Shown piece by piece: positions 9,597 through 62,918 of a DNA stretch of 64,000 bases. The position numbers were made by a program, and so were the translations under genes. Numbering within the stretch: position 1 is the stretch's first letter; each line of letters starts with the position of its first letter. Below the pieces are notes generated by a model. The model ran no database searches and was not told the origin of the DNA. It worked only from the letters and a program-made list of their open reading frames with translations. Where the stretch lies: NCBI RefSeq assembly GCF_040183065.1, contig NC_091123.1, forward strand, positions 11,512,001-11,576,000. The letters run 5' to 3'. Origin of the DNA: Periplaneta americana (lineage: Eukaryota > Arthropoda > Insecta > Blattodea > Blattidae).

Positions 9597-9768
9597 GAAG
9601 GGTTCAGAACCATAGTGGGTCAAGCGCAATTTACTGAATACGTAGAAAACAAGGGTTAAAATTAAGTTATTACCATAATTCAATGGAAACCTAGGCCTAT
9701 GACAAGTAAAATAAAATATACACATTAAATCTAAATGATTGCAATCTTCATTAAACTATGGTTGAATA
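9597..9768 (+). repeat. M1 segment inside Helitron-I copy 1
   Basis: Begins GGGTTCAGAACCATAGTGGG and continues through CAAGGGTTAAAAT to the ATTAAACTATGG end. Related segments lie at 11064-11450, 19104-19316, 21258-21363 and 54228-54395. A TAGGCCTA insertion is present at 9692-9699. Confidence 0.75.
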
Positions 9769-10000
9769 TAATAAAAATTAAGAAACATGTTAATGGAATT
9801 GTCATTGCACCAAATGAGTGTCTCTGGACCAAAATGATCGCATTTTAATTATTTGGATGCAATTTAAATTAAGTAATATATTAAACGATTTATCCTTCTA
9901 TCAAACACAAATGTTCCCTGGATCAAATGTCCTATTTTAATTATGTAATTACTTTATATTTATTTCTAACGGGTGCAGCGGAGCGCACGGGTACGGCTAG

Positions 10001-10486
10001 TAATAAAATAAAATTTGTAATTTTCTTAACACTGTAGGGTATTTCATTTGATATTCATGTACATACACAATATTTCCATGACTATTACCTATGTGCTACA
10101 CCTCGAGGCACACTGAACAGAGAATGGAGCGGGACGGACCGCGTGGAAAATCGCCACACTTCTGTTTCCATGGTACCGCGAGTAATATCATTTTGTAAGA
10201 AAACGAGACAATTTTGTCAATATATAAACTCTTTCATAAGTAACGAGTCTATGGAAAAATAAACTATTTTGGATATTTTTTTAAAACACCAGTGAAAGGG
10301 AGACATAACTAAGTTCTATAAAGTAATGGCGATCCCTATGCTCAGTTTCGGGCGTATGAGCTGGATTATTGACAGAGCTGATACACGTAAATATTGATTC
10401 GGGGGATGTTATAGTTATCCGTTCTGTGGTTGGATTTAGGCTAGGCCTACATTATTGTACAAACGGAGAAGTTGTTATTAATTGTT
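10001..10486. other. Unassigned sequence
   Basis: No gene or element recognised. TAGGCCTA occurs at 10442-10449. Confidence 0.4.
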
Positions 10487-10806
10487 ATTAGAGGAGAAAA
10501 ATTCGCTCCGGCGCCGGGGATCGAACCCGGATCCTTGGTTTTACGTACCCAGCGCTCTAATCACTGAGCTACGCCGAAGTTCAATCCACAGCACCGGATC
10601 GAATCCTCTCCTCTAGCGTTTTTTCCCTTTATGATCTTACTCCATGTTCGACTGTAAGTTGACATAATATTAAGTCAACTGCCATTATACAAGGAGCGCA
10701 CTCAATTGAGTGAGTTGGTGGCCGAGATTCAACAGTAATATGCACTGTTGGGCGAAGAATCTACGTAGAGATTAATTTTTGGTCCTACAAAATTTATCTG
10801 TTATGG
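10487..10806. mobile_element. tRNA-like dispersed element
   Basis: Same family as 57901-58250. Its minus strand has a tRNA-like module whose B-box complement is GGATCGAACCC (about 10518-10528), and GAGCTACGCC (10567-10576) is the complement of a D-arm-like GGCGTAGCTC. The body continues through ACAAGGAGCGCACTCA to the shared end near TTTTTGGTCCTACA. The long inverted arm present in the 57901 copy is absent. It is not a functional tRNA gene, because the acceptor halves do not pair. Confidence 0.6.
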
Positions 10807-11063
10807 TTTTCAAATTTGTAAAAAGAATTGAATAGCTTAGCTTATATGGGGAATGAATGAAAATATATGGGGAGCATGGAGGTAGAGCAGCATGTGTCCA
10901 AGACTTCGGCACTAGAATTAACTACTGTAGTCAACAACAAGCTCCCAGTGTCCTTTTAGCTTGGGAAGAACCGAGGACACAATTTGATAGGAGGCTCAAG
11001 AAACCCCAGGGACTTCTGGAAGTTTCGGCAACGAGAAAAATACCTCCGCTAGTCGGAATTGAA

Positions 11064-11450
11064 GGGTTCAGAACCATAGTGGGCCAAGCGCCATTTACTA
11101 AAACCGTAGAAAACAAGGGTTAAAATGAAGTTATCACTCTCATTCAATGGAAACATATAGCAAGTAGGGCTAATATAAAGTATACACGTTAAAACTATAC
11201 GATATATGAACTTTTCCTGGTAGGGGCAAGTTACCTGGTTGAGGTTTTTTCCGGGGTTTTCCCTCAACCCAATACGAGCAAATGCTGGGTAACTTTCGGT
11301 GCTGAACCTGGACTCATTTCACTGGCATGATCACCTTCATTTCATTCAGACGCTAAATAACCTAGATGTTGATACAGCGTCGTGAAATAACCCAATAAAA
11401 ATATATATCAATCTTCATTAAACAATGGTATTCACTTATTTTTAACCCTT
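11064..11450 (+). repeat. M1 segment interrupted by a SINE
   Basis: M1 sequence from GGGTTCAGAACCATAGTGGG runs to about 11221. SINE-A sequence follows, then M1 resumes with CAATCTTCATTAAACAATGG at about 11410. Confidence 0.65.
11222..11400 (+). mobile_element. SINE-A, 5'-truncated
   Basis: Lacks the tRNA-like head. It starts at GGGGCAAGTTACCTGGTTGA and carries the full body and 3' end (ACGCTAAATAACCTAGATG, then AGCGTCGTGAAATAACCC). It interrupts M1. Confidence 0.85.
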
Positions 11451-12246
11451 GCTTTCCCTTCAATTAAACCAGTAATCAGTTGCTATAACAACACTGAGTT
11501 ACCTAGCCACCAAATAAAACAGTGGAAGAACAAAAATTTGTAGAGCACGTCCAAAGACTGGAAGAGGACTACCATAAAGATTTCTGCACTTTAAACCGGA
11601 AGGAAAAAAAAACAGGAAGGCCCAAAAATGGGATGGCTCACTCTTTCATAACCGGAATAGGCCGTGAGGCTTAATTCATGATTATGATGATGTTGGTGAT
11701 AATGACGTAAGTATTACAGTATATTCACATAGAAGTATCCGCATAGTGTAGCTGTAATCGGCAGAGAGGCATTGAACCGCGGTCGATTCCCAGGCTTTGG
11801 GGCGTTCGCCCTTGGAAGTCTCATTATCTGGAAGGAGTTTCTTCCGTTCTACACCGGAAGTGTGCTCAAGGAGGAACCAAGTAAGAAGGCTGCCCATTGT
11901 CTCACAATTGTTGCGTATCTCTTCAGCCGTGGCGGTCAGCTGACGGCTCCTAATATCAGGGAACGGGGTTCGATTCACATGAAGAAAGCGAGTAAGAAGG
12001 TAGCCTTCTTAAAACAGCTTGAAATTCACTTGCAGATTCTTACAAATTGAGATATTGTACAGAAAATGTTAATAGCTGCTGATGCGAATTGTATCACAAG
12101 AAAAGCTACATTTGAGAAGTAATTTTGGAGAACATGTTTCTGGCACATGTTTTTCCCCCTGTACTTTTGAATGATTTCACAATGGAAGAAAGACATATAA
12201 TACATATTCCGTGAGATATAGTGTTAAAAGTTGTGTAATCAAGATG
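11451..12246. other. Unassigned, with a possible tRNA-like fragment
   Basis: No gene is seen. At about 11925-11985, a GGGGTTCGATTC box preceded by CGTGGCGGTCAGC may be a SINE head, but no body is recognised. Confidence 0.3.
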
Positions 12247-12248
12247 TA

Positions 12249-13068
12249 CAGGGACATAATTTTATTTTTACTTCAATTATTATTGTACCTGAGTTTTTGA
12301 ATGAACTTCACTTCCACCCTCTGTACTAGTAAACTTCCAATCGTCCTCCAGACAGAACCAAGGCCGCGTATGCAGTCAAAGTTGCCTTACGATCATAGTA
12401 AACATTAGACTACTGAGTTAGTGAGTATAGTAGGCCTATGTTCCAAAAATAAGTTCACGTTTTCCAGTGACGAAAGAGCTTTCAATATTGAATCATATTT
12501 TCGCACAGGTACTGTCGTCCATTTGCCTACGTCGTATCTCGGTTTCCCTCCACCCGCTTCTGCTCGCCCTTCTGTAAAGGCTAGTGGCTGCGCTGTCTTA
12601 GCTCTTTTCTGAGAACATTAATTTCTGTTAGGAATTGGACGTCTACGTAATACTATACACCTGTTTAAAATAACTTAAAGAAAAGGACTTCGTTAAGTAG
12701 TTAACTGTCACGTGACCCCCCTCCCTTCTACGATCCTGCGACAAAATCACTTGGACGGACAGTAGATAGCATGTCTGAGTAATTTTATCTATTCGGATCG
12801 GGCAGAAGTGAAGATTGAATGTACAGTACGTAAGGTACTCTTTTATAGAGTGGGTACAGAATTATTTCAACGTGAGTTACTAGTACGAAGGACGAAACTG
12901 GTAATTGGGATTAGGTACAATAGTCTATTGTGCGATAATATGCACAAAAGAACTGAAGCCTGTATCGAACTGCCACCATTTTCAAAAATGTGTTTAAATA
13001 TCCATATTACGATTATTTTTCAATTTAACTTCATTATCTATATTGTACGTTGTGTTGTAGACAGTATA

Positions 13069-13121
<53 letters not shown>

Positions 13122-13310
13122 TATTTAATCTGGCAGAGCTAAGGCCAGTAGGCCTTCTCTTCCGCCCGGCCAGACTCTAATTCTAATAGAATACAATTGC
13201 TTACATAGTTATTACATTAATATCTAGACCATAAAACAACATGAAAGTAAATAATGAAAGTTGGATAAGTAATGTTAGTGTGACAATAATAAACATTGGT
13301 AAGAAATAGT

Positions 13311-13374
<64 letters not shown>

Positions 13375-13857
13375 TATAACCATTAAACATTGAGAAACGT
13401 GAAAGAGCTATTATTGTTAACAAGAATTGTTAGAAAAATATTTCGTTAGCCTATTCTTAAATTGGTTTGATGTCTGACAGTCCCTGACATTACTCGGTAG
13501 GGAATTCCAAAGTCGAGGAACAGCCACAGTGGAAAAAGATGAATTATACACTGCATAATGAATACGTACGAATGGTTAGCTCAGTTCGTGAGTAAAAACA
13601 CTTATTCATAAAACAGTACTGTATTTTGATTAAACAAAAACCTAATGAAAATTATCAAACTCAAAATAGCGATTTTTCCTAGTTTACGTAAATGAACTAT
13701 TTTTCTTCCCTCCTGTACCTAGTAATGTGATTTGCTTGTATTTACGCCAGTATCATCGAACTCCAGTCGTGGGTAGCAAACAGTGTTTCCGGTTCTCAAC
13801 CGTTAATCCAAAGGTATTAATGTTAGAAATGTTAGTAAAAATAAAATGATGTCCCTG
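12249..13857. mobile_element. TA-flanked TIR element, copy 1
   Basis: Terminal inverted repeats of about 25 bp: CAGGGACATAATTTTATTTT at 12249, and at 13857 the complement of CAGGGACATCATTTTATTTT. TA lies outside both ends, fitting the Tc1/mariner superfamily. A second copy is at 20190-21254, and alignment of the two shows that 13071-13545 is a later insertion. No transposase is recognised. TAGGCCTA at 12431-12438 is absent from copy 2. Confidence 0.75.
13071..13545 (-). pseudogene. LINE-D (CR1/L2-like) 3' end inserted in the TIR element
   Basis: The complement of 13450-13540 reads FSTVAVPRLWNSLPSNVRDC, then QTSNQFKNRL. This RLWNSLP...FK signature closes the ORF2 of CR1/L2/jockey-type LINEs. 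The 3' UTR follows, including GGCCTACTGGCCTTAGCTC at about 13140-13165. The element ends in an ATT-type tail at 13071-13121. A second (AAT)n array (13312-13374) sits within the UTR. TIR element copy 2 lacks the whole block. Confidence 0.75.
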
Positions 13858-13859
13858 TA

Positions 13860-14385
13860 CAACGTCTTATGCTCTTTTGACACTAGCAATAGTGCCGCAT
13901 TTACTACGCTTGTCAGAAATTACGACATATTGACTTTGTTCAAGATATAATGCAAGAGCACAAGGACGGTGTCGAGATATTTCTGTTCCGACAACACTAT
14001 TAAAATGTATCGTTTGAAATTTCAAATGGTGTTCTTGTCTTATCGGCTTGTTTTAGTTTCGGGTGTGATTGGTGATCATCATCTTTCCTGTGAATCATGC
14101 ACATTACAAGATGTTTGTTCTATCGTCTGTATCTAGTCTTAAACACGCAACTATTTACACAGTTGAACATAGCGGTCACTTACTGCGTATAGTTCAGCAA
14201 CTGTTGAGTGAACGCATTTTGAAACAGCACTAAATTTATCTTTTCAAGTTGTAATTTCTACAGGGACTTAGAGATATTGATTATGGGAGACGTTTGAATG
14301 TTGCTTTTTTAAATGCCGGTAGGCCTAATAGTTAAAATAGACGATAATCCCAATTATTTTCTATTATTTATAAATTTATTATTTG
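13860..14385. other. Unassigned sequence
   Basis: No gene or element recognised. TAGGCCTA occurs at 14320-14327. Confidence 0.4.
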
Positions 14386-14501
14386 TATGTATTTATTCAC
14401 ACTGCAATGGGTATATACTCGGTGGCAGTGGTAACTAATTACACTTAATAATGACAATAATAAACTTATTAATTAAAAATACAATTAATAATAATACTAA
14501 C

Positions 14502-14533
<32 letters not shown>

Positions 14534-15297
14534 CAGGGAATATCCTAAATTACATGAAACACGATCACTTAAAATAACATTTAAAATAAATCGAATTTGT
14601 ATCTTAAACCTAAGTTCGAACTAAAACCTACGAGTATGATATGTTCATATCTGCACAAGTACCTTTCAACACTACACTCATTTCGCTGACAACTCACTCA
14701 CTGCACTGGAACTACGACACATTTCACTGATTCTATCCTGATTTCACTAACACTTCAAAAACATTTCACTGTTCAAATACTTTGCACTGCCATTATAAAC
14801 TATAAAGCTTCACCGACAGCAACACGTTTCACTTACACAGCACACTTCACTGACACGACATAATTCTTCACTGATACAACACTTCAATAACAAAATATCA
14901 TTCACACCCTTTACATACTGTGTATAATTATCGTCTATTAGTAAACTCCTTAAGCCTATTTTTAAATAAATTTTTGGTTGTTGGTAAAGCCTTTAGTAAG
15001 TCTGCAGGTAAAGCATTTCAGTCTCTGATAGTACGATTGAGAAAAGAAAACTTTCCAGTGTCCGTCCTCTGTCTTCTTTCCCTCAATTTATAATAGTGGT
15101 CGTTCCTTGAAGAGTAATTTGGCGGCTGCTACCTATTTTTTTATTTCTCTCCAGGCAGGCTCACCTCTGTATGTTTTGAACAGTGCGCATAATCGAATTC
15201 GCGTTCTCCTGCCCGTGAGTGTGTGCCATTTTAATGGTGAATTTTTCCGACAACACTTGAGAGCCCGTTTTTTAATCTTTTCCAGTGTCTTTGAATC
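14386..15297 (-). pseudogene. LINE-C 3' end and UTR
   Basis: The complement reads LEKIKKRALKCCRKNSPLKW, a TGRRTRIRLCALFKTYRGEP segment, then NRTIRD-stop-NALPADL and NLFKNRLKEFTN. This is the C-terminal end of a non-LTR retrotransposon ORF2, with a TGG-to-TGA stop at the conserved tryptophan (about 15030). Below about 14935 lies a long 3' UTR with degenerate TTTCACTGA-type repeats (14650-14900) and an (AAT)n stretch (14500-14530). Confidence 0.7.
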
Positions 15298-15529
15298 TGT
15301 ATCAACTACTCGGTTATTTAGCGTCGATGGGATTGGAGATAGCGAGATTGTACTTTGCGAGATGATGCTGAAGATTCGCCATAGATTACTTGACATTCGC
15401 CTTACAGTTGGGGAAAACCTCGGAAAAAACCCAATCAGGTAATCAGCCCAAGCGAGAATCGAACCCATGCCCGAGCGCAACTCCGGATCGACAGACAAGC
15501 GCCTCAGTCGACTGAGCTACGCCGGTGGC
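15298..15529 (-). mobile_element. SINE-C, lacking its last bases
   Basis: The complement has a tRNA-like head (GGCGTAGCTCAGTCGACTGA, with GGGTTCGATTCTC as B box). The body TTTTTTCCGAGGTTTTCC and the CGACGCTAAATAACC 3' region follow. It abuts LINE-C directly and lacks the final AGCGTCGTTAAATAA segment found in the copy at 49206-49511. Confidence 0.75.
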
Positions 15530-15696
15530 TGTCCCAGTTTCCTAACTAGAGTTTTATGGACTGATGGCGCAAGATTTTTTAACAATGGAGTAATGAATAG
15601 CCATAATGCACAGCAATAGCACAGTCTAGTATACAGGTATACAGTCACGAAGCTCAATACGTAGTAAATATGCATCCATCTCGCTAACCACTAGGA

Positions 15697-16349: not shown

Positions 16350-17142
16350 TAGTAGGCAGCAGAAATTTTCCATTGGGTGCGAGAAACCACTCATCAACAA
16401 TGTACGGCACTAATGTACGGTTTGAGATTTTAAAAGGAGGTTTATTAAAGAAATTTAACGACCATCTACAGTTTCTTCAGAATTCTCTGGTTGATTTCTT
16501 TACATCTCGGAGATCGACTTCAAATGTTTTCTTCAACAGGTTGGTGCGTCAGCAAACAATTCAATAGTTAGGGCCTATTTCTGAATGTCTGGACAAGTCA
16601 TTCCAACAAAGATGGATTGGATCAAACGGACCAATAAGATGGCCAGATAATGACACCATTAGATTCATTTTATGAGGACACTTAAAATAAGAATTCTACA
16701 ATAGGCCAACACAACCAGAAAATGTTGATCTGCAAAACATGATTCTGGAGACACGCAAATATATTCATCCCTGATGTCACAATAATGAACACAAAAAGAA
16801 TTTCGAAAGATGCTCTGCAGAAGAGAGAAGCAATTAGAATACATGTAATGAAATTTACGTTTTCAAAGATATTTTCATGAAAAAAAGCTAAAAATAAAGA
16901 GATTATCTTCAAATTGTTTTTATTTTGTTAGTGAATGTAAAGCCTATAGGCCTATCATGCTTAAATCTTCTGAATCAGGAACAAGAGTGCAATAAATTTG
17001 TAGAACGAAATGTAGAGTGTCCCATTAAAAAAAACAGAACTTTGTGTCACTACAAATTTCTGCAACACTCTGTGTAAGCTCAATTACCAACTCTTTCAAA
17101 CGGTAAGCTATTGTAAATTCTATAACGAAAATTTATAATTAT
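16350..17142. other. Unassigned AT-rich sequence
   Basis: No gene seen. Mariner-end-like GAGTGTCC occurs at about 17013. TAGGCCTA occurs at 16947-16954. Confidence 0.35.
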
Positions 17143-17400: not shown

Positions 17401-17446
<46 letters not shown>

Positions 17447-19103: not shown

Positions 19104-19316
19104 AAGGGTTCAGAACCATAGTGGCCCAAGCGCCATTTATTAAAAACGGAGAAAGCAAGGGTTAAGTTAAGTGAATGCCATAGTTTAATGAAGATTGATA
19201 TATCATTTAGTTTTAATGTGTATACTTTATATTACTTGCTATATGTTCACTTAATTTTAACCCTTGTTTTCTCAGTTTTTAACATATGGCGCTTGGCCCA
19301 CTATGACTCTGAATAC
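19104..19316. repeat. M1, palindromic copy
   Basis: Starts GGGTTCAGAACCATAGTGGC and ends with the complement (TGGCGCTTGGCCCACTATGA), so both termini carry the M1 end in inverted orientation. This suggests that M1 is itself a TIR element or has formed an inverted dimer. Confidence 0.65.
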
Positions 19317-20189: not shown

Positions 20190-21254
20190 TATTTTACTTC
20201 AATTTTTATTGTACTTGAGTTTTTGAATGTACTTCACTCCCACCCTTTCTACTAATGAAGTTCCAACTGTCCTCCTCACAGAACAAGGCCGCATATAGTA
20301 AGCAGTACTGAGTGAGTATAGTACGTTCCAGAAAAATGTTCGCGTTTTCCAGTGACGAAAGAGCTTTCAATATTGAATCATATTTTCGCACAGGTACTGT
20401 CGTCCGTTTGCCTACGTCGCATCCTGATTTCCCCCACCTGCTTCTGCTCGCCCCTCTGTAAAGACTAGTAATATTATACAACTATTACGTACGTAATATT
20501 ATACAGCTATTTTAAATAACTTAAATAAAAGGGCCTCGTTAAGTAATTAACTCTCACGTGATTTCCTCCCTTTCTACGATCCTGCAACATAAACACTTGG
20601 ACGGACAGTAGATAGCATGTTTGAGGAATTTTATCTGTGCGGGTCGGACAGAAGTGAAGATTGAATTTGCAGTATGTAAGGTACTCTTTTATAGAGTAGG
20701 TACAGAATTATTTCAACATGAGTTACTAGTACGAAGGACGAAACTGGTAATTGGAATTAGATGCAATAGTCTATAGTGCGATAATGGGCACAAAAGAACT
20801 GAAACCTGTATCGAAATGAACGGCCACCATTTTCAAAAATGTGTTTAAATATCCATATTATGATTATTTTTCAATTTAACTTCATTCTCTATATTGTACG
20901 CTAATGTGCTGTAGACAGTATAATATTCACTGCATAATGAAACGTTCACATGGATAACTCAGTTCGTGAGTAAAAACACTTATTGTTAGTACTGTACTGT
21001 ATTTTGATTAAACAAAAACCTAATGAAAATGATCAAACTCAAAATTGCGATATTTCCTAGTTTACGTAAATGGGTGAACTACTTTTCTTATACCCTATGC
21101 ATAGTAAAGTGATTTGTTTGTATTTTACGCCAGTAACATTGAACTCCGGTCGTGGAAGGGGGTAGCTAACTGTATTTCCGGTTCTCAAACGTTAATCCAA
21201 AGGTATAGCCAGGTTAATATTAAAAATGTTAGTAAAAATAAAATTATATCCCTG
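20190..21254. mobile_element. TA-flanked TIR element, copy 2
   Basis: Aligns along its length with 12262-13857 but lacks the LINE-D insertion. The right TIR is intact (the complement of CAGGGATATAATTTTATTTT, then TA at 21255). The left TIR is lost at about 20190. Confidence 0.75.
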
Positions 21255-21544: not shown

Positions 21545-21915
21545 TGCTATAGAGTACGTAGATCAGAGAGTATAACTAGGATGTTCTCTGGCATGGACAT
21601 GGATATCGTTTCCGGGTAGAGATGAAGGGATGCTGCAGCTGTTTGTAATATTTCGGTTGTTAATTTTTAAATTACAACAATATTTCCGATTGCAGCTGAA
21701 TTTAAACATGTATCATCGTTCATTCGGTGTTTAGGCCTACTGTTACAACAAGGTCGGTCGTCGTTAACGTGTAACTGTGCATATGCGATAAAATGCATAA
21801 AGGATTATAAATTTTAGGTTTATGTGACAATACGTTTTAAAGTGGGACGTATGTAATAGACGACTTTATTGGGAAAAAAGAAAAAGAAGCCTTACACAAA
21901 CGCATTAAACTGCAA
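21545..21915. other. Unassigned sequence
   Basis: Nothing recognised except TAGGCCTA at 21732-21739. Confidence 0.4.
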
Positions 21916-27138: not shown

Positions 27139-27380
27139 AGAAGTAACCAAATACTATGAAAAAACCTTAAGTTGAAATTAAAAATTGGAGACTGGACATA
27201 GCAAAGGTTGTAAATACCAAAAAGAAAAACCTTAGAAAACAGTGATTTTGTGCAATTAGTAATGTATTTGTAATTTCATACATTTTGCACATCTATGATA
27301 GAAGCTAGGTTCTAAATAAAATTTCAATGAGAATTATCCCCCTTTCTCACTGAATTGAAACAGGTACATAGACTCTATTT

Positions 27381-27438
<58 letters not shown>

Positions 27439-27680
27439 AAATAGAGTCTATGTACCTGTTTCAATTCAGTGAGAAAGGGGGATAATTCTCATTGAAATTT
27501 TATTTAGAACCTAGCTTCTATCATAGATGTGCAAAATGTATGAAATTACAAATACATTACTAATTGCACAAAATCACTGTTTTCTAAGGTTTTTCTTTTT
27601 GGTATTTACAACCTTTGCTATGTCCAGTCTCCAATTTTTAATTTCAACTTAAGGTTTTTTCATAGTATTTGGTTACTTCT
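27139..27680. repeat. 542-bp near-perfect palindrome with (AT)n centre
   Basis: The left arm 27139-27383 (AGAAGTAACCAAATACTATG...) is the reverse complement of 27436-27680, joined by about 52 bp of pure AT. The symmetry is exact at every point checked: the coordinates of paired bases always sum to 54819. No mobile-element termini or target duplication are evident. Confidence 0.95.
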
Positions 27681-27695
27681 CAAGTAAATTATATA

Positions 27696-28256
27696 CGGAG
27701 GTGTGAAAATTATTAGAATAATCTTAATTTTAAAGGTTTTTTAATTTTTCCTTCACAAATATTAATTGAATTGATGAATATTGGTATACATTACTATACT
27801 GATGTAGGACATATTTACTACTAGCAATGCCGGAAAGCATTGTTGTACATTGGTATTTTTCTTATTTTACAATTGTTATGGGAATTCAGAAATTATTATA
27901 TTATGTAGGCGGAATTGGAAACATAAAAAATTATATGCACAAAACAGATGTATACGTTCATTTGAACCTTCACAACAATGTAAACGCAAAGAACAATTTG
28001 TTTAAAGCATTTCTTAATTAATTTTTGATGTTTCCAATTACGCCAACATAATATAATAATTTCTGAATTCCCATAACAATTGTAAAATAAGAAAAATACC
28101 AATGTACAACAATGCTTTCCGGCATTGTTAGTAGTAAATATATCCTACATCAGTATAGTAATATATATCAATATTCATCAATTCAATTAATATTTGTGAA
28201 GGAACTATTAAAAAACCTTTAAAATTAAGATTATTCTAATACTTTTCACACCTCTG
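27696..28256. mobile_element. Large-armed TIR element (MITE), TA flanks
   Basis: Arms of about 235 bp: 27696 onwards begins CGGAGGTGTGAAAATTATTA, and the complement of the right end begins CAGAGGTGTGAAAAGTATTA. They surround a loop of about 90 bp (27930-28021). TA lies on both sides (27694-27695, 28257-28258), fitting a Tc1/mariner-type MITE. The arms differ by scattered substitutions, so it is older than the preceding palindrome. Frames within it are palindrome artefacts. Confidence 0.75.
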
Positions 28257-28258
28257 TA

Positions 28259-30488: not shown

Positions 30489-31942
30489 CAGGATGTTCCC
30501 GAAATTAGTGCAGTTTTTATGGTGGATACGAAGAGGTGTCTATACGAATATATTTCTTGATATGATAAACGTTGGGTCTCTGTTGCATTGCTATTCCCTT
30601 TCGATAAAAATGCTGGAGGGATTACTCCTTAGATTTAGGCAATCCGTCGTCTTCCGCGCCTAGCATTATAAAACAATATTTACTTTGAATTATCTGTCTA
30701 ACAATTAACAAAAATAAAAACATATTTGAAAGATCTGCATTTTTATTGTTTAGTATAGTAAAGAATACAAAATCTATATCTAGAATAACTGAATACTTTA
30801 TTTTAGAAAGGGCACATGTCACATTTTCCCAATTTTGCAGGAGACACAAAAAACTATTTAAATTAAAGACTTATTTTTTCCATTATTTGTATTGCATCTT
30901 GGGAAGAATACTAAAATACACTTTACACACGAGTTTCAGATTTTTTTTAATGAAATGGGTGGTTTATATGATTTTTTTTGTCTTGGACATGTGTCCTTTC
31001 TAAACACAGGAAGAATGAGAGTTCAAAAAAGTGGACATATTACAAATCAATGCTTCAATGAACAATAAGCGTACAAAATAATGATGAACATGGAAATATG
31101 GCACTTATTTTCACTTCTGGCAAGAAAAACTTTACTCTGCATTACCCTGTGTTGTAGTTAGCCAATTCACAATGGTGTCATAGAATGATTTTGCCTCTTC
31201 ACTTACATATTTGAGAAAGATTTTTGATTTCATTTTTTTTCCATTAATAGGGTTTTTTCTTCAAAAGCTCGTTCATTCGGAAAAGTCATAGGCCTACGTA
31301 TTACATTACGCTTCTCAAGACGAAATGTACTTTGATCCAGACAGTTGATATCAGCACATCCTTTAAAATTTCCTTTGTCCATTTCAAAGTAGTATAGCTC
31401 AGATATTTTAAAAACCTTTCTCTCTTCCTTATTTTTGATTGACATTGTTTCACTTGAAGTTACATACTTTTTGAAATATAGAGGCCATCAGTTATCAAAA
31501 TTCAATATGATGTTACTGTCTGTTAATAACACTGTTCCAATTTACCTCTTGAGCCATCTTTTATCAGTGTTTCATACTTTTCTGGGGTATGTCCTTTCTC
31601 AAATTTATTTAACCTCCATAGCGACAAATGAAGTTGAATTAGGAATGTGATATTTCTCAACTTAATGCGGCTACACCAATAGAGTAGGATATTTTTAACA
31701 AAACATCAATTTCCACAAAAATGTGATTTGTGCCCTTTCTAAAATAAACGATTTAACTATATGATGATTTTATTAAGATCTTATAATATACCTGTACCGC
31801 CTTCATTAAATTTATTAGGAGAAATTAGACTTTAGTATGTTGGTCTTGGCTTTGAGACTCAACATTCATTATATCAAAACACTAGTATGGACTCCAACTC
31901 AAATCTATAAAAAAAATCTGCACTCATTTCGGGAACACCCGG
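30489..31942. mobile_element. Tc1/mariner-like TIR element, in intron 1
   Basis: The left end CAGGATGTTCCCGAAATTAG and the complement of the right end CCGGGTGTTCCCGAAATGAG form TIRs of about 25 bp, with TA outside both (30487-30488, 31943-31944). A second inverted pair lies inside: TTTATTTTAGAAAGGGCACA at about 30797 and its complement near 31743. The minus strand between about 31440 and 31050 has a fairly long frame (KGNFKGCADINCLDQSTFRL and onward) with no recognised domain. It may be a decayed element-encoded protein. Confidence 0.7.
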
Positions 31943-33961: not shown

Positions 33962-34650
33962 GAAGATTATAATCCATTTTAATATTATCCTCCTATTTAT
34001 GTCTCGGCTTCCCCAAAAATTTACTTTTTCCCTCCGGCCTCCCAACTAATTCTCTATATGCATTTCTGGATTCGCCCATACGTGCTACATGCCCTGCCCA
34101 TCTCAAACGTCTGGATTTAATGTTCCTAATTATGTCAGGTGAAGAATACAATGCGTGCAGTTCTGTGTTGTGTAACTTTCTCAATTCTCTTGTAAATTCA
34201 TCCCTCTCAGTCCCAAATATTTTCCTAAGAACCTTAATCTCTCTTCCTCTCTCAAAGTGAGAGTCCAAGTTTCACAACCATACAGAACAACCGGTAATGT
34301 AACTGTTTTATAAATTCTAACTTTCAGATTTTTTGACAACAAACTAGATGACAAAAGCTTTTCAATCGAATAATAACAGGCATTTCCCATATTTATTCTG
34401 CGTTTAATTTCCTCCCGAATGTCATTTATATTTGTTACTGTTGCTCCAATATATTTGAATTTTTCCACCTCTTCGAAGGATAAATCTGCAATTTTTATAT
34501 TTCCATTTCGTACAATATTCTCGTCACGAGACATAATCATATACTTTGTCTTTTCGGGATTTACTTCCAAACCTGTCGCTTTACTTGCTTCAAGTAAAAT
34601 TTCTGTGTTTTCCCTAATCGTTTGTGCATTTTCTGACTTGTACACTACAT
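33962..34650 (-). pseudogene. LINE-A relic, C-terminal half, in intron 1
   Basis: The complement reads YKSENAQTIRENTEILLEAS, EVNPEKTKYMIMSRDENIV, FEEVEKFKYIGATVTN, LPVVLYGCETWTLTLREEER, then after a frameshift near 34230 RRLRWAGHVARMGESRNAY. It lacks the last about 150 bp and the GTAA tail. It covers the region immediately after the missing FADD motif. Confidence 0.85.
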
Positions 34651-36945: not shown

Positions 36946-37107
36946 GTTATACTGTATTTTACTAAATTTGTCTGAACAACATTTTGCTTTTCAAATTCAG
37001 ATATAGGCCTATCTACGACTTCCTAAATATACAAAGTTTGTTACCTGTTTAATAATTTTGTTATTTTTTCAGTATTTTAAATGTAGAAAGTGTTTTTCCA
37101 GTTATTG

Positions 37108-45188: not shown

Positions 45189-45690
45189 GGTCATTTTGAA
45201 CATAAAATGCCATATGAACATGGGTCAGATTATCAACTGTTAAGGAGTTAGGCCTACAGCTGATTGAATCGTAAGAAAATAGCGATGTTTTTGAGCAGAA
45301 ATAAGAGTTATTCACTTAGAATACAGAGAAATATTAATTCAAAATACTATACTAATCATAAAATAAATATAACTCAGTTTTGAAGCACTTTCACTTCAAT
45401 GCACTCAGCCGCGCGAATGTGAACGGCACGCGCGTACTTCGGCACGACTGTCCCTGATAAACACAGTTGATAATAACCATACCTATCTTCTCCTTCTCCC
45501 CAGTATTTCAAGTCAAAGTGCACCCCCCCCCCTTTAGTTCACATTCAAATGTTTCTATTACGATGCAACTCCAAAGCCTGATTCACAGTATGACGTTAGA
45601 ATTTTTACGAATAACTTTCACATCAATGATAAATCGGACTCATGTTAACATGACATTTTATGCTCAAAACGGCCTGTCGAAAATGAACTC
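45189..45690. other. Unassigned sequence
   Basis: A C run lies near 45525-45533 and TAGGCCTA at 45249-45256. No gene seen. Confidence 0.4.
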
Positions 45691-46248: not shown

Positions 46249-48548
<2,300 letters not shown>

Positions 48549-49511: not shown

Positions 49512-49846
49512 AAGAGAAATATAATCGTTCATAACATGACACAGAAACGGCAATGAATTTATTTCGCTCTCAATCGTACTCACAAATGCTATAAATCAGA
49601 ACCAATTCCTTTAAAATTTAAATATCATAGTAACAGTCACCAAAAATGAGCATGGACGTTTCACAGAATTACTAGAATCCTATGATTCTTCTGTCACTTT
49701 TTTGTTGGATTACACATTAAGAAAAAAGCTTTGAATATATGGGGCTATTCCATCAAATAACCAGTTGCCATAGAAACGCCTACATATCACATAGCTTGTA
49801 GGCCTACAATGTACTAGGCAAGGCTCATAAAACCAATGATTTTTTC
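49512..49846. other. Unassigned AT-rich sequence
   Basis: TAGGCCTA at 49799-49806; nothing else recognised. Confidence 0.4.
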
Positions 49847-49850
49847 TTAA

Positions 49851-50871
49851 GGGGAGAGGATGGTATTTTTTTTAACTTTTTTTCTATTTGGTGTAAAATA
49901 TTAATTTTTTTATATGTCTAGAGCTCATAGCTGTAGCAACTCAACCAAATATAAATATTTTGAAAAAAATTATTTGGGGGCCCAGATTTGAAAAAAAATA
50001 CCCAATGCAGGGATTTTACTAAAACCTATATATCGAAACCATTTTTAAAGATAGATTCAAACAGTTTTTTGGAGTGTACTTGCAAAAGCATGCTCTACAA
50101 ACTGTTTGTAGCAAAAAATTTTTATATTCGTCTCTGCGTTTGTAAAATAAATGATTAAATTTTAGTAACACTTCTTCGATTTCCTTTTTCGCAAACAAAA
50201 CTGACATGTTTTAAAAATGAAATCAATTAACAAAATTCTGTTACAGAGAAAAGTTTCCTAATAGTCTAAAGAATGTGTGTTCTAAATTTCATACATGTAT
50301 CTTTAATATTTCAAAAATTATATCCATTTTTGTCTGGCAATGAAGCATAAAAATGAAGTTACCGGAAATAACGATACAGGGGGCGTGCGATTTAAAAATC
50401 CATAGGGCAGGAAGTTTAAAAATGGCGTCTCAACGTCCGATAAGGGCACAAATACCCACAAAATGTTATGCTATGCATTCCACACATATCAAAGGGTAGT
50501 TTAGAGAATTTTTTTTTTTTAAATTCAATTTACCGGAACCAACAATAAAAATCCATAGCGCAGGAAGTTTAAAAATGGCGTCTCAACGTCCGATAAGGGC
50601 ACAAATACCCACAAAATGTTATGCAATGCATTCCACACATATCAAAGGTAGTTTAAAGAATTTTTTTAAATTCAATTTACCGGAAACAACAATAAAAGGG
50701 GACGTGTGATTTAAAAATCTATAGCGCAGGAAGTTTAAAAATGACGTCTCAACATCCGCTAAGGGCACAAATACCTACAAAATGTTATACAATGCATTGC
50801 CTACATATTACAGGGTATTCTAAAGAAAAAAAAATTACTCATTTTTCACCAAAAAATATCGTCCTCTCCCC
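49851..50871. mobile_element. TTAA-flanked TIR element with internal tandem repeat
   Basis: TTAA at 49847-49850 and 50872-50875. TIRs are GGGGAGAGGATGGTATTTTT at the left and GGGGAGAGGACGATATTTTT as the complement of the right. No transposase is seen. Confidence 0.8.
50360..50840. repeat. Three tandem units of about 145-175 bp inside the TTAA element
   Basis: Each unit contains TTACCGGAA, AAATC(C/T)ATAG(G/C)GCAGGAA, GTTTAAAAATG(G/A)CGTCTCAA and ACAAATACC(C/T)ACAAAATG. Confidence 0.9.
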
Positions 50872-50875
50872 TTAA

Positions 50876-52388
50876 CATGGAATACTCTATATACATCTCA
50901 AAGAATATTTACGGTGAATCTAGAAAGTTGCACTTAATAATGTATTATATATCTCTAGTTATAAATGATAGGCCTACAAGTAAGTAAATTACATTACACG
51001 CTTTGATTAGTGTGTGAATTGACAAAGGAAATAATAAATGACAAGCGTTTCCATGGTTTCCTTGAGCTGATTTCGCTCTCTGCCAGCAGGTAGCACCAGT
51101 TTGCGGAATCACTGCTAACCAGTACGTGAGCATCATTCAAATATGAACTGCATGCTGGGATTCGTCAACGTCAGTGTCTGTCGGAAGAATTCTGAACGTG
51201 CCCCGCGTGCATAGGGGAGATGGAGGTTAATCATTTAAGTTGTAAAAGTCACGGTGAAGAGAGAAATTGCCCTCCATTCTAATCCGAGCGCGCCAGCTCT
51301 TTTCTCCCTTAGGTTCTAGCTTAAATTAAAGTTATTGCTGTATAACTCAGCCATAAATAATACTGATATAAAACACGCTAGTAAATCATAAGCTAGGAAA
51401 GTACATTTTTTAGAAACTCTTTTTCAGGATTTTCAATTAAATTTCGGAATTAAATTAAAACAGAAAGTTTAAATTCATGATTTTTAAGTACAGACAGAAG
51501 TAAGCAGGTGAACATATTTAGTTCGACTTTTTCGATATCAGAGAAATTCAATCCGTGAATTTTTGTGAAAATATCGAAATGTATATTAAGCAAACCCGGA
51601 CCTAAAAAATATTTAATGATAATTTTCATTTCTGTTTTTTATTTTTACTGCAATTTCCTATTCCTAACGGTATATGAAACATTACACGATTTAATTCTAA
51701 AGAACTAAAACTTTTTTGTGTCACTCCGCTGTAATACGAATATGCAGCTGGGATATGGTAAACATTTTGAAGGTCACCTTGAAAAATATTCGTTGGTTTT
51801 TCACTGCATTATATTGTCTGAAATTTCCTCTTTTCAACGAAACCTATAAGAAATATACATTAGACTACTCATTTCTAAACAGCTATTTTTTTTCTTCTGT
51901 AACAATCCGCCATATGCAGCTAGGATGTAGACCTACTATAAATTTTGCAGTGCTTGGGAAAAGTGGCATAAGTCAGTTTCCACAAACCCTTTTTATTAAT
52001 TTATTGACAACTTACGGAACATCTGCTCACTTGGGAAAAGAGACATACGTATTTCTCCCATTACAATAATTCATACAGAAGAAAATCAAATCGACATAAG
52101 CCAGTGTGTAGACAATTTTTTTCCTTCTCCTATAAAATTAATGTTTTTGACTTGTGCCACTTTTACCGAGCACTACAGAATTAGAACAGAAGATAATTTT
52201 CCATAAATTTATATTTTATGTATAAAATGCATATTTTCTCAATTTATACCAGTCAAAATTACTTCATAATTTTAGAGAATATTCATTACACAAAACCTTA
52301 GGGCATGAACACAGACATTTTATGAAATTTAAATGACAGGGTTAGTCCAAAAATTTAGCAAAAATAGGCCTAATACTCAAGTTTGTAT
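50876..52388. other. Unassigned AT-rich sequence
   Basis: No gene supported. A 117-codon + frame at 51716-52069 has no recognisable domain. TAGGCCTA occurs at 50969-50976 and 52365-52372. Confidence 0.35.
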
Positions 52389-52799: not shown

Positions 52800-53210
52800 A
52801 TGTGAGAAAATTCATAACTTAGAAATTAAATTATATTTTTTACAATAGGTCTACTCCTGTTAAATTAACGGCAAATAGCCAGGAATGAGCTGCAAAAATT
52901 TCATTACTGTACACCTAATTGTTTCTTAGAAAAGGTGCATTAAAAACCATTAATTAATGTAACATAGGATAAATAGGACGGTCCGGGTTTCCAACCAGAT
53001 TAATGAAGTCGTAATTTTGGACTTAAATTGTAAAACAGGTTCTTATTGGCATCTATACTAATAATAAATCTGTAGCCGAAATTTTTCTGGTAATTTTCGA
53101 TTTTCCAAAAATAATTGGTCCTAACATATATAATTAACCACCCTGAAACCGAAAATCGCTTTTTTGAAATTTTTGTTTGTAGCCTATGTCTGTCTGTCTA
53201 TCTGTCTGTA

Positions 53211-57887: not shown

Positions 57888-57900
57888 CAAGGATATCAAG

Positions 57901-58368
57901 TAAAGATTAATGTTTGGTTCTACAGAATATATCTGTTATGGTGACAATTGATAATAGGGGAGAAAAATTCGCTCCGCCTCGGGGATCGAACCCGGGTCCT
58001 TGGTTCTATGTACCAAGCGCTCTAATCATTGAGCTACGCCGAAGTAAAATCTACACCACCGAATCCCTCTCATCCAGTGTTTTTCCCTTTATGGCCTGAG
58101 ACCAAATTCGACATATATGTTGACATTTATATTAAGTCAACTGCTATTTTACAAGGAGCGCACTCAGTTGAGTGACTTAGTGGCCGGGATTCCACAGTAA
58201 TATGCACTGTTGGGCGAAGAATCTACGTAAAGATCAATTTTTGGTCCTACAGAATAAACCAAGTCACTCAACTGAGTGCGCTCCTTGTATAGCGCTTGGT
58301 ACGTAGAACCAAGGGCCCGGGTTCGATCCCCGGCGCCGCAGCGAATTTTTCTCCTGTAATATTAATAT
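57901..58368. mobile_element. tRNA-like inverted element inserted in the minisatellite
   Basis: A 468-bp insertion with exact 13-bp duplication CAAGGATATCAAG (57888-57900, 58369-58381). It has a minus-oriented tRNA-like module (GGGATCGAACCCGGG near 57980) and a plus-oriented one (CGGGTTCGATCCCCGG near 58319). The middle shares sequence with 10640-10800. GGAGCGCACTCAGTTGAGTG near 58155 is repeated inverted near 58267. The TTGGTCCTACA-type motif occurs near both 57915 and 58240, as if part of a tandem dimer was captured. Confidence 0.72.
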
Positions 58369-58381
58369 CAAGGATATCAAG

Positions 58382-58740
58382 GTTTAGTCAAAGGCGGTGG
58401 CCAGGAGAAACACATGGAGAAAAATGGTAATATAAGGAAAATAAAAGATTTACAAAGAGAAAAGGAGAACAAGGGGAAGTCAAGGAGATAAAGGGGAAGA
58501 TAAGGGGAATAAGGGGTAGAAAATGAGAAGAAGAGGAATATAACGAGAGTAAGAGAAATAGGAGTAGGTGAAGGGGAAGAGGACGTGGTTTGCATTTTTA
58601 TATGCCACCCAGTTCCCAAGTTTGACCTATATCTAATGAATAGAAAAGCGTAGTTGTATATCGAAAAGAAAATCGAAAGGTGGAGAAAGAGAAAGTGGTG
58701 AGACGAAAATGAAAGGAGGAGAGAGGGGGTGTGACAAGCT
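58382..58740. repeat. Remainder of purine-rich minisatellite, degenerate
   Basis: AGGAGAA and AAGGGGAA motifs continue, with a non-repetitive stretch at 58585-58660. Confidence 0.7.
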
Positions 58741-59225
58741 GGGTTCCTAACGTAATTAGTCTGGCTGACTTCGCCCTGCTTCATAAGCCACAACTTGTGA
58801 TGCCTTTCTTCGCGCGTCGGATTAAATATTGATCTGCAGAGGGCTGAACAAACAAAGCGACATTATGACGTCACGCCCTGGAATTTAGGATTAATGCCTG
58901 GTGATAAAACTAATATCCGTGAAGGCGCTCAGCCCATGCTGTGACACGGGAGCAAATCGCGTATCTGCGGCCACGCTGGAGTAACAACAGCGGATTTTCT
59001 ATGAACACTTTTGGATAACTTTACTCAGCGAAGATTAGTTGGTTACCATGGTCACTTCCTTTTGCAAGGCCGTACAAATTCTGTTACCGGAGTCTACCTA
59101 CTCTATCAGTTACTCCAAAGAGCGTTTCCTATCAAACACGAGCGAAACCCTCCACTATACAGCTCTTACCAAAAGTTTAAGGACATTCCTTCATAAGTGA
59201 TGTTTCACACTTGTCCTTGTACTTA
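58741..59225. other. Unassigned sequence
   Basis: GC-richer than average, with no gene recognised. Confidence 0.35.
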
Positions 59226-59229
59226 TATG

Positions 59230-59600
59230 AAACCTCGTGATGTTTATACAGGGACCAAATACCTGTGAAAAATGAAGTTTTTACTGCAAACCCATTTGTT
59301 TGCCCTTCAAACTGTGGATTACATACGGTATTAAAAAAAAAGTGTCCAATATTTTAGGAGGTGATAGTATGCATCAAAACAAGAAAATTATGCCCAATAA
59401 ACATTGGTCCTACAACACAACCTTTCTGAGATCTGAACACTTGTTCATAGGAGGTGCTCAAGCTGACGTCCATTCATGGTAATGCATTCCTCTGCCCTTC
59501 GGCGTAAGAAATCAAGCATTCTTTGAAACTGACCTGGTTGTTCTTGATAACCAAAAGTCTAGGGCAGGCGTCTCAAGGCCAACGCATAAAAGTTGTTACA
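59230..59600 (+). mobile_element. Mariner-family element, 5' fragment
   Basis: AAAGTGTCCAATATTTTAGG onward to about 59510 matches, in inverted orientation, the 5' part of the element at 60525-61235. It includes GGAGGTGATAGTATGCATCA and TTCATAGGAGGTGCTCAAGC. No catalytic region is present. Confidence 0.6.
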
Positions 59601-59803
59601 CAGAGCAAGTGTAGATAGCGTAGTCAGCTGAAGAGATAAGTGCAGTACCCGAAGATAGCCGATCGCTGATTAATGTTACAAGCATGAGCGACCTAAGTGT
59701 AACTGTCGCGGGAGAAATGCCACAAAGCGACACTTTTGAGTTGTACTGTCAAAATAGACGGTTGTTCTCGGAAGAAATAAAATTTCTTAAGTAGTTTGCA
59801 ATA

Positions 59804-59839
<36 letters not shown>

Positions 59840-60524
59840 TAGTAATAAATGTATTTTCTAATTACATATTATGAGTAAAAAGAAGACATCTGAAGCATGG
59901 AGAACCATATATGTTACGTAATTATTTAAGCACAAGGAACTGGCTACTCTATCCCATTATCTCCTGGCCTAGTTACCTCATAAGTGGTGCCTTGTTGATG
60001 TCACATGTGAGGTTCAGACTGTCTTCGGACAGTTGACTAAACAACAAATTACTTCATTTCTAGTAAATGGTTTTTGGTATCTCTCTTTTTTAAGTTCATA
60101 CTATATTTAATAAAATAAAATTCAATTAAATAATAATAATTAAATTACAATTAAACTTGTTGATTGTTAAGGTACGTATTCTTATGATATGTCCTCTCAA
60201 ATTCTTTTCTCAAGTCCTTCAGTACATCTTTATATTTGTTACACTGGTCTTGATTCAAATTAGATAACAATTTTACATTAATAAATTGGTAACAGTTACC
60301 CACTAAAACTTACAACTCCCACAATTTCGCTTTCCCTATGAAAGCTTTTATTTGTTCATACATTTGCGGTAATAAGAACATTATTTCCTCGGAGATGGAG
60401 AGAAAATTGTAGCGGTTACAGATGTCTATTCAAACGTCGCGGTCAATGACGTCATCCGGAGATACACGAACTGCTCCCGCAACTTGTTTCACTCTTACAT
60501 TGAAAAAAGAGAGAGAGGAGGAAG
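59601..60524. other. Unassigned sequence with (AAT)n
   Basis: AAT repeats at about 59803-59838. No gene recognised. Confidence 0.4.
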
Positions 60525-61235
60525 TGCTCCGAGTAGGCCCTATTGAGACGTCTGGTCTAGGGGATTTAGATTTGAGGAACGTGCAGGCCAAGGTGTGGGG
60601 CCTCCCCAATCAATGCAGCTGTCCTGAAATGTTAGCGTCAGGTGTTCACGCTCATTGCGGAAAAAATGTGCTGGTGTGCCATTATGCATGAACCACATCT
60701 GTAGTCTTTGCTGACATGGCACATACTCCAGCAAGGTAGGCAATACATCATTAATTATAAAGTTCTGATAACGAGGCCCAATTAATCTCTGTGGTAGCAT
60801 GTATAGCCCTTAATAAATCTCCAAGAACGTCTGCCCATACGTTGATTTAGAATCGGTGCTGATGCCTTGTTTCTTCAACTGCATGGGGGTTTTCATCAGC
60901 CCACACATGCTGATTACCAAAATTCACATCATCAACTCTGCTGAACCCCGCTCACATCCGCAATCAAACTTTTGTTTTCAGTATTCCTTGCGACATATCA
61001 GTATTCCATGCCAGGGGTGTCAACTACGGTATGATTATCTGGTAGCGTGCTGTATTGTAGGGCAGAAAAATGCATTGCCATGAATGGACGTCACACTGAG
61101 CACCTCCTATGAACAAGTGTTCAGATCTCAGAAAGTATGTGTTGTACGACCCATGTTTATTAGACATTATTTTCTTGTTTTGATGCATACTAGCACCTCC
61201 TAAAATATTGGATACTTTTCTTAACACCCTGTATA
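60525..61235 (-). pseudogene. Mariner/IS630-family element with transposase relic
   Basis: The 5' region (CAGGGTGTTAAGAAAAGTAT at 61235 downward) is followed, with internal deletion, by the C-terminal half of a transposase. Split frames read VWADENPHAVEE-like and INVWADVLGDLL, then NDVLPTLLEYVPCQQRLQMW, FMHNGTPAHFFRNEREHLTL and GGPTPWPARSSNLNPLDQ. The family consensus has aspartates in HDGAPAH and in SPDLxPLD. Here both have become asparagine (HNGTPAH, SSNLNPLD), so the catalytic triad is lost in addition to the frameshifts. Confidence 0.75.
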
Positions 61236-61280
61236 ACGATTTGCCTGTTATGAAACTTATTGAAAAATTACATGGTTAGT

Positions 61281-61656
61281 CTTTACATTATGATATTGTC
61301 TATTATGTTGGGTTTGTATCCATTTTCCTGTGCTACGTATTTGATAGTGTGTATTTCTTCCTTGTAGTCTTGTTGTCTCATAGGAATGTTGATGAGTCTG
61401 TGTATCATGGATCGGAATGCTGCGTGTTTGTGTTGTGTGGGGTGATTGGAGGTGTTGTGTATGTGTGTTACCGTGGTGGTAGGTTTCTTGTATATTTTCA
61501 ACATGTGTTTGTTGTCTGTTTCTGTTCTTGTGATGTCTAAGAAATTTGTCGATTTGTTGTTTTCTGTTTCTAGTGTGTAGTGTAGTTTTGGATGTATTTT
61601 GTCTATGTATTTGTGTAGGTTTTCAATCTGTCTTTTGTTTCCTGTGTATAGTATTA
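61281..61656 (-). pseudogene. Penelope-like element, 3' part of RT ORF
   Basis: The complement reads LYTGNKRQIENLHKYIDKIH, LETENNKSTNFLDITRTETD, KIYKKPTTTVTHIHNTSNHP, TQHKHAAFRSMIHRLINIPM and IKYVAQENGYKPNIIDNIIM. The FLDI...YRKPT...SNHP..HK..A order is characteristic of Penelope-like retroelements after the RT core. It is separated from its upstream part (62919 on) by the LINE-A insertion. No GIY-YIG nuclease was identified. Confidence 0.82.
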
Positions 61657-61948
61657 GTGCATTGTATTCTTCACCTGACATAATTAGGAACATTAAATCC
61701 AGACGTTTCAATGGGCAGGGCATGTAGCACGTATGGGAGAATCCAGAAATGCATATAGAGTGGTAGTTGGGAGGCCGGAGGGAAAAAGACCTTTGGGGAG
61801 GCCGAGACATAGGTGGGAAGATAAAATTAAATGGATTTGAGGGAGGTGGGATATGATGATAGAGACTGGATTAATCTTGCTCAGGATAGGGACCAATGGC
61901 GGGCTTATGTGAGGGCGGCAATGAACCTGCGGGTTCCTTAAAAGGCAG
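61657..61948 (+). pseudogene. LINE-A 3' fragment inserted in the Penelope-like element
   Basis: 5'-truncated at GTGCATTGTATTCTTCACCT. It carries the GHVARMGE-equivalent region (frameshifted), GRPEGKRPLGRPR and DRDWINLAQDRDQWRAYVRA-like coding, then TTCCTTAAAAGGCAGTAAG. Together with its tail it is bounded by GTATAGTATTA (61646-61656, 62919-62929). Confidence 0.9.
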
Positions 61949-62918
61949 TAAGTAAGTAAGTAAGTAAGCAAGTAAGTAAGTATGTAAGTAAATAAGTAAG
62001 TAAGTAAATAAGTAAGTAGGTAAGTGAATAAGTAAGTAGACAAGTAAATAAGTAAGTAAATAAGTAAGTAAGTAGGTAAGTAAATAAGTAAGAAAGTAAG
62101 TAGGTAAGTAAATAAGTAAGTAAGTAAATAAATAATTAAGTAAGTAAGTAGGTAAGTACATAAGTAAGTAAGTAAATAAGTAAGTAAGTAGGTAAGTAAA
62201 TAAGTAAGTAACTAAGTAAGTAGGTAAGTAAATAAGTATGTAAGTAAGTATAAAATTAAGTAGGTAAGTAAATAAGTAAGTAAGTAAGTAAGTAGGTAAG
62301 TAAATAAGTAAGTAAATAAGTAAGTAGGTAAGTAAATAAGTAAGTAAGTAAGTAGGTAAGTAAATAAGTAAGTAAGTAAATAAGTAAGTAGGTAAGTAAA
62401 TAAGTAAATAAGTAAGTAGGCCTAAGTACGTAGGTAAGTAAGTAAATATGTAGGAAAATAAGTATGTAAGTAAGTAAATAAGAAAGTAAGTAAGTAAATA
62501 AATAAGTAAATAAATAAGTAAATAAGTAGGTAAGTAAGTAAATAAGTAAGTAAATAATTAAGTAAGTAAATAAGTAAGTAAATAAATAAGTAAATAAGTA
62601 AGTAAGTAAATAAGTAAGTAAGTAAGTAAATAAGTAAGTAAGTAAGTAAATAAGTAAGTAAGTAAATAAGTAAGTAAGTCAGTAAGTAAATAAATAAGTA
62701 AGTAAGTCTAGTAAATATATAAATAAGTAAGTAAGTTAATAGATAAGTAAGTAAATAATTAAGTAAGGAAGTAAATAAGTAAGTAAGTAAATAGATAAGT
62801 AACTAAGTAAATAAGTAAGTAAGTAAATAAGTAAGTAAATAAGTAAGTGAATAAGTAAGTAAATAAGTAAGTACGTAAGTAAGTAAGTAAATAAGTAAGT
62901 AAGTAAATAAGTAAGTGA
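61949..62918. repeat. (AAGT/AAAT)n array grown from the LINE-A tail
   Basis: About 970 bp of AAGT with frequent AAAT and occasional AGGT variants, forming a loose higher-order pattern. It starts at the LINE-A 3' end and stops at the right target duplication. One TAGGCCTA interruption lies at 62417-62424. Long YLLT frames on the minus strand are artefacts. Confidence 0.97.

Follow-up and report, generated by a model that had tools for sequence, protein, structure and literature searches.

An abundant TA-flanked palindrome in the genome of Periplaneta americana as the probable excision footprint of a TA-targeting element with G-run ends

Cut-and-paste transposons differ in what they leave behind. 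Tc1/mariner footprints measure 2–4 bp (PMC7913693), Stowaway-type miniature inverted-repeat transposable elements (MITEs) leave a duplicated TA and short pieces of the element ends, with non-homologous end joining as the main repair route in yeast (PMC4561436), and fragments of terminal inverted repeats (TIRs) of 1–4 bp are found at orthologous sites (PMC1925063); piggyBac, which targets TTAA, is described as excising without footprints (PMC7351741). Here we analyse a 64-kb stretch of the Periplaneta americana genome (NC_091123.1, positions 11,512,001 to 11,576,000; the window) that is rich in the palindromic octamer TAGGCCTA, or TA-GGCC-TA. This word and its variants—a TA, one to three G, one to four C and a TA—are very probably excision footprints of a TA element with GGGG...CCCC ends, represented here by a 218-bp hairpin MITE. 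Like the footprints of Tc1/mariner elements (Tc1, Sleeping Beauty, ZB), the cockroach inserts pair a duplicated TA with what appear to be a few terminal element nucleotides, in several variants per site. However, both ends are usually retained (GG|CC, +6 bp), whereas Tc1/mariner elements retain one, worm Tc1 typically leaving +4 bp in the soma (PMC13148408) and ZB 0–3 bp (PMC7913693), and the copy number, in the hundreds of thousands, is unlike that of described Tc1/mariner footprints. Plant Stowaway MITEs resemble the cockroach system in their short, palindromic, TA-flanked structure, in TIR-fragment footprints at the same TA and in repeated hits on one site (PMC1925063), but carry a Stowaway terminus, whereas here the ends are GGGG...CCCC and the host is an animal; piggyBac does not fit TA-GGCC-TA.

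Sixteen exact copies of TAGGCCTA lie in the window, against a mean of 0.63 and a maximum of 3 in 100 dinucleotide shuffles; a preliminary description of the window, made from its letters alone, had put the count at 17 or more, which is too high, but its claim of an excess far above chance stands. With tandem repeats masked, the octamer has the top z-score among all 8-mers (15 versus 0.55), and it ranks first again in a 264-kb sample composed of the window and 20 stretches of 10 kb from elsewhere in the genome (L068–L087; 48 versus 2.3). Across the 3.23-Gb assembly of 91 contigs there are 457,526 copies, compared with 16,914 for a reversed-sequence control. T...A surrounds 16 of the 20 AGGCCT occurrences in the window. 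The shorter TAGGCTA/TAGCCTA is likewise over-represented (14 versus 4.8 expected in the window, 48 versus 17 in 264 kb), while TAGGTA (32 versus 25.6) and TAGCTA (8 versus 10.5) are close to expectation in the window, and TAGGTA/TACCTA reaches 112 versus 99 in 264 kb. Neighbours of the octamer at one mismatch number 67 versus 51.5 expected in 264 kb, and about the expected number in the window, which suggests that the scars are young on average; rough arithmetic puts their divergence at some 4%. The word is also contained in a primer that targets the flank upstream of German cockroach retrotransposons (PMC7650587), and is thus present in another cockroach too.

Comparison of the window with itself reproduced the proposed pairs of filled and empty sites at 12431/20321, 53180/8955 and 47241/48263, in each of which a TA in one repeat copy is matched by TA-G(G)CC-TA in the other. 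A fourth pair, 9692 versus 54320, also holds, but the copy of repeat M1 (11155), offered as a second comparison for it, has between 11140 and 11190 a 6-bp insert of its own, the variant TAGGGCTA at 11165, which lies in the same repeat family as 9692 at another TA. Within an AAGT array, the mod-4 register of AAGTAAGT is identical in 20 of 20 cases before the octamer (62001–62416) and offset by 2 in 14 of 14 after it (62425–62700), as expected from the 6-bp insertion that had been claimed at 62417. At least 10 of the 16 window octamers are without an empty-site partner. A wider catalogue of clean indels between repeats covers 276 kb, made up of the 264-kb sample and four loci selected for tandemly arranged octamers. 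Its 2,038 alignments, with each direction included in the count, contain 39 sites of the form TA-X-TA. Here X is GC in nine cases (six of them units of a single tandem array, L064), GCC in six, empty in four, GGCC in four, AGGTACTCTTTTA in three, CAG in two (one site, two copies) and C in two; GGGCCC, GCCC, CAGG and six others occur once each.

Two of these catalogue entries, GGGCCC (L071:553) and GGCC (L071:7976), fall at one position of one high-copy retrotransposon family, TCACGAGACA-TA-ATCATATA (site 1). Genome-wide, site 1 is empty in 46,159 copies (22,930 + 23,229) and holds 0–30 bp between duplicated TAs in 196 (102 + 94), with no match to the reversed control in either case. The preliminary description had named a family consensus containing the octamer as the outcome that would overturn it, and at this scale the consensus is empty. 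At the sites tested, the octamers are insertions and the empty state is ancestral. Eight scarred copies align to six empty copies around site 1, several at full length and some diverging further out. The inserts share with Tc1/mariner footprints both the duplication of TA and the restriction to it: among 22 matches to the CA adjoining the site 1 TA, the only non-TA dinucleotide tested, none is a G/C-run insert; most are TA inserts or duplications of local sequence.

Insert spectra were read from the 100 places that come first by contig order (contigs C1–C7 for site 1, C1–C2 for site 2). At site 1, 37 of the 100 consist of a G-run followed by a C-run: GGCC 21 times, GGC seven, GCC and GGGCC twice each, and GGGCCC, GGCCC, GCCC, GCCCC and GC once each. 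Sixteen are of CAG/CTG type, a class defined by a list of forms that we set (CAG 5, CTG 4, CA 2, and CAGTG, CACTG, CCTG, CCCTG and CCAG one each). The remainder comprises CCGG, CCG or CC (7), G(G)TC (5), other inserts of 2–5 bp, GGG among them (19), inserts of 0–1 bp (6) and long inserts or local duplications (10). A second position, AACACTC-TATA-TGCATTTC (site 2), repeats this spectrum. Its pattern, empties included, has 78,074 matches (control 1), and 986 copies (484 + 502; control 1) are 3–30 bp longer than the empty site; of the first 100 of these, 95 could be parsed and 5 could not, the parsed set comprising 37 G-run plus C-run inserts, 15 of CAG/CTG type, 3 of CCGG, CC or GG, 4 of G(G)TC, 20 others, 9 long and 7 short. 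Its two TAs carry 16 G/C scars with 13 of CAG or CTG, and 21 with none, respectively, among the parsed copies. CAG/CTG scars, the classical Tc1/mariner type, are thus present at both sites, and 22 of the 31 among the matches listed are one-ended (CAG or CTG).

What might have left these inserts? The window holds a hairpin MITE with termini TA-GGGGAGAG...CTCTCCCC-TA, hence GGGG...CCCC ends, whose 103-nt arms are 93% complementary. Short, with terminal inverted repeats and many copies, it is Stowaway-like, and comparison of paralogous sites suggests that its excision leaves TA plus short end pieces. Exact 15-bp MITE ends number 5,936 + 5,880 genome-wide, a rate that predicts about one end per 264 kb; seven, on four elements, were seen in that small sample, which includes the window. 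These four copies, found by BLAST with a MITE copy from another part of the genome as query, each share 97–98% identity with it, suggesting recent activity. The same element occupies scarred TAs. Site 1 inserts matching GGG[AGT], a pattern that also requires A or T as last base, occur in 12 copies (reversed control 1); ten are MITE-like over their first 23 bases, one starts GGGATACG and one is a GGG scar. Thus the inserts match the terminal nucleotides of an element that begins at the same TA in ten copies, bearing out the earlier reading of the hairpin (3833–4046) as a TA element with GG...CC ends. Of six MITE copies taken from the beginning of contig C1, a whole one (L096) sits at site 1, where its flanks, joined by one TA, align both to empty copies and to scarred ones, and another (L094) sits at site 2. 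A 2-bp TA target-site duplication is seen in both, in L096 by joining the flanks to give the empty site and in L094 by reading; for the remaining listed copies TA was part of the search pattern, and they are uninformative on this point. Two variants of about 490 bp (L108, L109) proved not to be longer forms but the MITE with a dispersed-repeat insert, which we take to be a short interspersed nuclear element.

The coexistence at one TA of the empty site, MITE starts and G/C-run inserts, together with a second retrotransposon site that bears the same scars and a MITE copy, supports the footprint reading of the preliminary description. That the short inserts are excision scars is strongly supported by these comparisons, and the hairpin MITE is likely to be their main source genome-wide. 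We infer the following course. An element with TA duplication and GGGG...CCCC ends would insert at TA and later be excised by staggered cuts some 2 nt inside the termini, leaving both flanks with 3' GG overhangs that could not pair with one another; end joining that retained and filled in both would yield TA-GG|CC-TA. Loss of one nucleotide would give GGC or GCC, and deeper cuts GGG|CCC or G|CCCC. The modal GG|CC scar fits such a 2-nt stagger with both overhangs retained, and the single GCCCC among the 100 listed site 1 inserts, if derived from an end, implies at least four terminal C, as the MITE has. CAG overhangs, by comparison, could anneal with one mismatch, whereas GG overhangs, unable to pair, would both be copied. 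A Tc1/mariner-type transposase may act on the MITE in trans; its autonomous partner would be expected to carry a DDE/D transposase gene between GGGGAGAGTCGGG ends.

Several observations weigh against this reading or against parts of it. Almost half of the listed site 1 inserts (47 of 100) fall outside both the G-run plus C-run and the CAG/CTG classes, and single-end GG or CC scars are rare (4 of 195 parsed across both sites). The pairing step is weak, in that worm Tc1, too, has overhangs (CA) that cannot pair. Its typical scar in the soma is nonetheless +4 (78%; PMC13148408). No MITE transposase was identified, and no search aimed at transposases for the MITE ends was made. Octamers far outnumber exact MITE ends (457,526 versus 5,936 + 5,880), and the base after TA is C in 36 of 106 half-sites of the octamer versus 20 of 100 MITE ends (Fisher p = 0.03; background 18%), a comparison in which the MITE ends are the 100 that head a list of 10,324 and come from contig C1 alone, and neither set is fully independent. 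This difference suggests that the scars may have parents besides the extant MITE. There are, finally, further TA elements that start with GGG (L074:8844, L075:2456 and L064:583), in a survey that is incomplete, the tandem mask having removed the sample's four MITE copies and maybe others. Together, the flanking bases and these other elements leave a single parent only likely, while the case for footprints stays strong.

The alternative that survives best keeps the footprints and changes the parent: most scars would derive from other or older GGG-ended TA elements, such as that at L075 with its GGGTAAAC ends, and the MITE would be a minor contributor. Several such elements exist, one with a Transposase_1 (PF01359) fragment, the flanks of octamers are unlike those of MITE ends in composition, and octamers exceed exact MITE ends by about 39:1 and MITE copies, at two ends each, by about 77:1. 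Against this, 10 of the 12 GGG[AGT] inserts at site 1 start like the MITE, GCCCC would require four C if made from ends, and the 264 kb has four MITE copies versus two other GGG-ended elements; we consider this parentage rather unlikely. The L075 element itself (2456–3770; TA-flanked, GGGTAAACACTGG ends) is mariner-like, a mariner with a GGG terminus whose ends differ from those of the MITE.

Donor-free repair at TA breaks, whether by telomerase, by terminal transferase or through failed integration, would account for G/C-rich additions, and insect telomere repeats are TTAGG. But what is inserted corresponds to the termini of an element present at the same TA, no TTAGG-like extension is found among the 100 inserts listed at site 1, and runs reach GGG and CCCC with CAG/CTG scars alongside, so that this origin is very improbable. 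Less credible again is that the octamer is a product of base composition or a selected binding motif: it is palindromic, as many binding sites are, but 16 copies stand against 0.6 expected, the empty partners show a TA where the filled copies have it duplicated, both within repeats and in a simple-sequence array, and GGC, GCC and GGGCCC share its position; chance is further rejected by the shuffles, the AGGCCT context, the masked window and the 264-kb ranks. Deletion from an ancestral octamer, between which and insertion two-copy comparisons by themselves cannot decide, is rejected at both sites tested by the empty copies set against the filled (46,159 versus 196 at site 1, with many different inserts at one TA), and its probability is close to nil.

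Excision footprints and TA MITEs are already known. The present case stands out by its scale, by a palindromic form that keeps both ends and by the tens of thousands of replicate targets that one genome supplies. No report of the octamer as an excision scar was found among the hits listed from one open-access library (40 of 182 for one query, a far smaller share for broad ones), as judged by titles and abstract openings; the available part of PMC7325037 contains neither 'footprint' nor 'GGG', and that of PMC4678618 none of 'footprint', 'excision', 'TAGG' and 'GGGG'. Excision scars are usually studied by a single reporter or locus. Here the near-identical copies of a retrotransposon, in their tens of thousands, serve as replicate targets, so that a single assembly shows how often transposon excision is repaired and with which products, and the genome would amount to a huge natural archive of transposon excisions and of the repair of the resulting breaks. 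Two-ended palindromic scars predominate with G-run ends, and one-ended scars among those of CAG type, which suggests a rule in which overhang pairing steers end joining. More tentatively, and with somewhat less than even confidence, we propose that the genome carries about 400,000 two-ended scars of one TA-element class, tens per resident copy, and that the end sequence (G-run or CAG) decides whether repair preserves one overhang or both. If so, the usual fate of such elements would be excision without net gain, and the genome would be a natural assay, at saturation, of how transposon breaks are repaired, as well as a steady source of a new palindrome. The word resembles a motif or a binding site but is better explained as mutational debris, which calls for caution in motif searches and k-mer analyses of this genome.

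Table 1. Octamers, footprints and related elements in the window
Feature	Position	Strand	Basis or comparison
TAGGCCTA octamer	2832..2839		exact match; without empty-site partner
Hairpin MITE, 218 bp, TA-GGGGAGAGTCGGGTAG...CTACCCGCCTCTCCCC-TA, likely footprint parent	3831..4048		103-nt inverted arms
TAGGCCTA octamer	5476..5483		exact match; without empty-site partner
TAGGCCTA octamer	7123..7130		exact match; without empty-site partner
TAGGCCTA footprint (TA-GGCC-TA) in repeat copy	9692..9699		empty partner 54320
TAGGCTAGGCCTA, two overlapping footprint-like units, TA common to both	10437..10449		without empty-site partner
TAGGGCTA footprint (TA-GGGC-TA)	11165..11172		empty partner near 19234, minus strand
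TA-flanked element with CAGGGACAT ends	12247..13859		ends unlike GGCC
TAGGCCTA footprint, TIR element copy 1	12431..12438		empty partner near 20321
TAGGCCTA octamer	14320..14327		exact match; without empty-site partner
TAGGCCTA octamer, AAGCCTA immediately before	16947..16954		without empty-site partner
TAGGCCTA octamer	21732..21739		exact match; without empty-site partner
TAGGCCTA octamer	31289..31296		exact match; without empty-site partner
Empty site 1 (TCACGAGACA-TA-ATCATATA), retrotransposon copy	34524..34543	+	sequence alignment
TAGGCCTA octamer	37004..37011		exact match; without empty-site partner
TAGGCCTA octamer	45249..45256		exact match; without empty-site partner
TAGCCTA footprint (TA-GCC-TA)	47241..47247		empty partner near 48266
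TAGGCCTA octamer	49799..49806		exact match; without empty-site partner
TAGGCCTA octamer	50969..50976		exact match; without empty-site partner
TAGGCCTA octamer	52365..52372		exact match; without empty-site partner
TAGCCTA footprint (TA-GCC-TA)	53180..53186		empty partner 8955
TAGGCCTA footprint within AAGT array	62417..62424		6-bp register shift

Two other kinds of element in the window were ruled out as parents of the footprints. The CAGGGACAT TIR element (Table 1) has ends unlike GGCC, and the TTAA-flanked elements with GGGGAGAGG ends, piggyBac-like in their target and found at 49848–50874 and at L086:343–1183, have ends similar to those of the MITE but a TTAA target. The host retrotransposon protein has no relative in the viral contig collection.

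A second palindrome, TACCGGTA, is also enriched in the 264-kb sample (10 versus 2.0), and CCGG makes up 4 of the 100 inserts listed at site 1 and 1 of the 95 parsed at site 2; both are probably scars from elements with CC...GG ends. TACGTGCTA (13 versus 1.1) and TAACCTA (63 versus 31) are likewise in excess in this sample, without explanation. Octamers cluster densely in L071 (13 in 10 kb), and seven at 84-bp spacing lie at C1:1034003–1034514 (G000), apparently a satellite with a scar inside its unit. A search for paired octamers in viral and genome contigs returned 63 loci with at most five octamers each, the richest lying in short local repeats. One sequence, L011 (JAAEPZ010000268.1), is labelled a bacterial metagenome-assembled genome, although by eye we take it to be eukaryotic 18S rDNA-like. 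In the window, two long inverted repeats lie side by side (27144–27675 and 27694–28258), and many of their mirrored positions match exactly over 20 nt.

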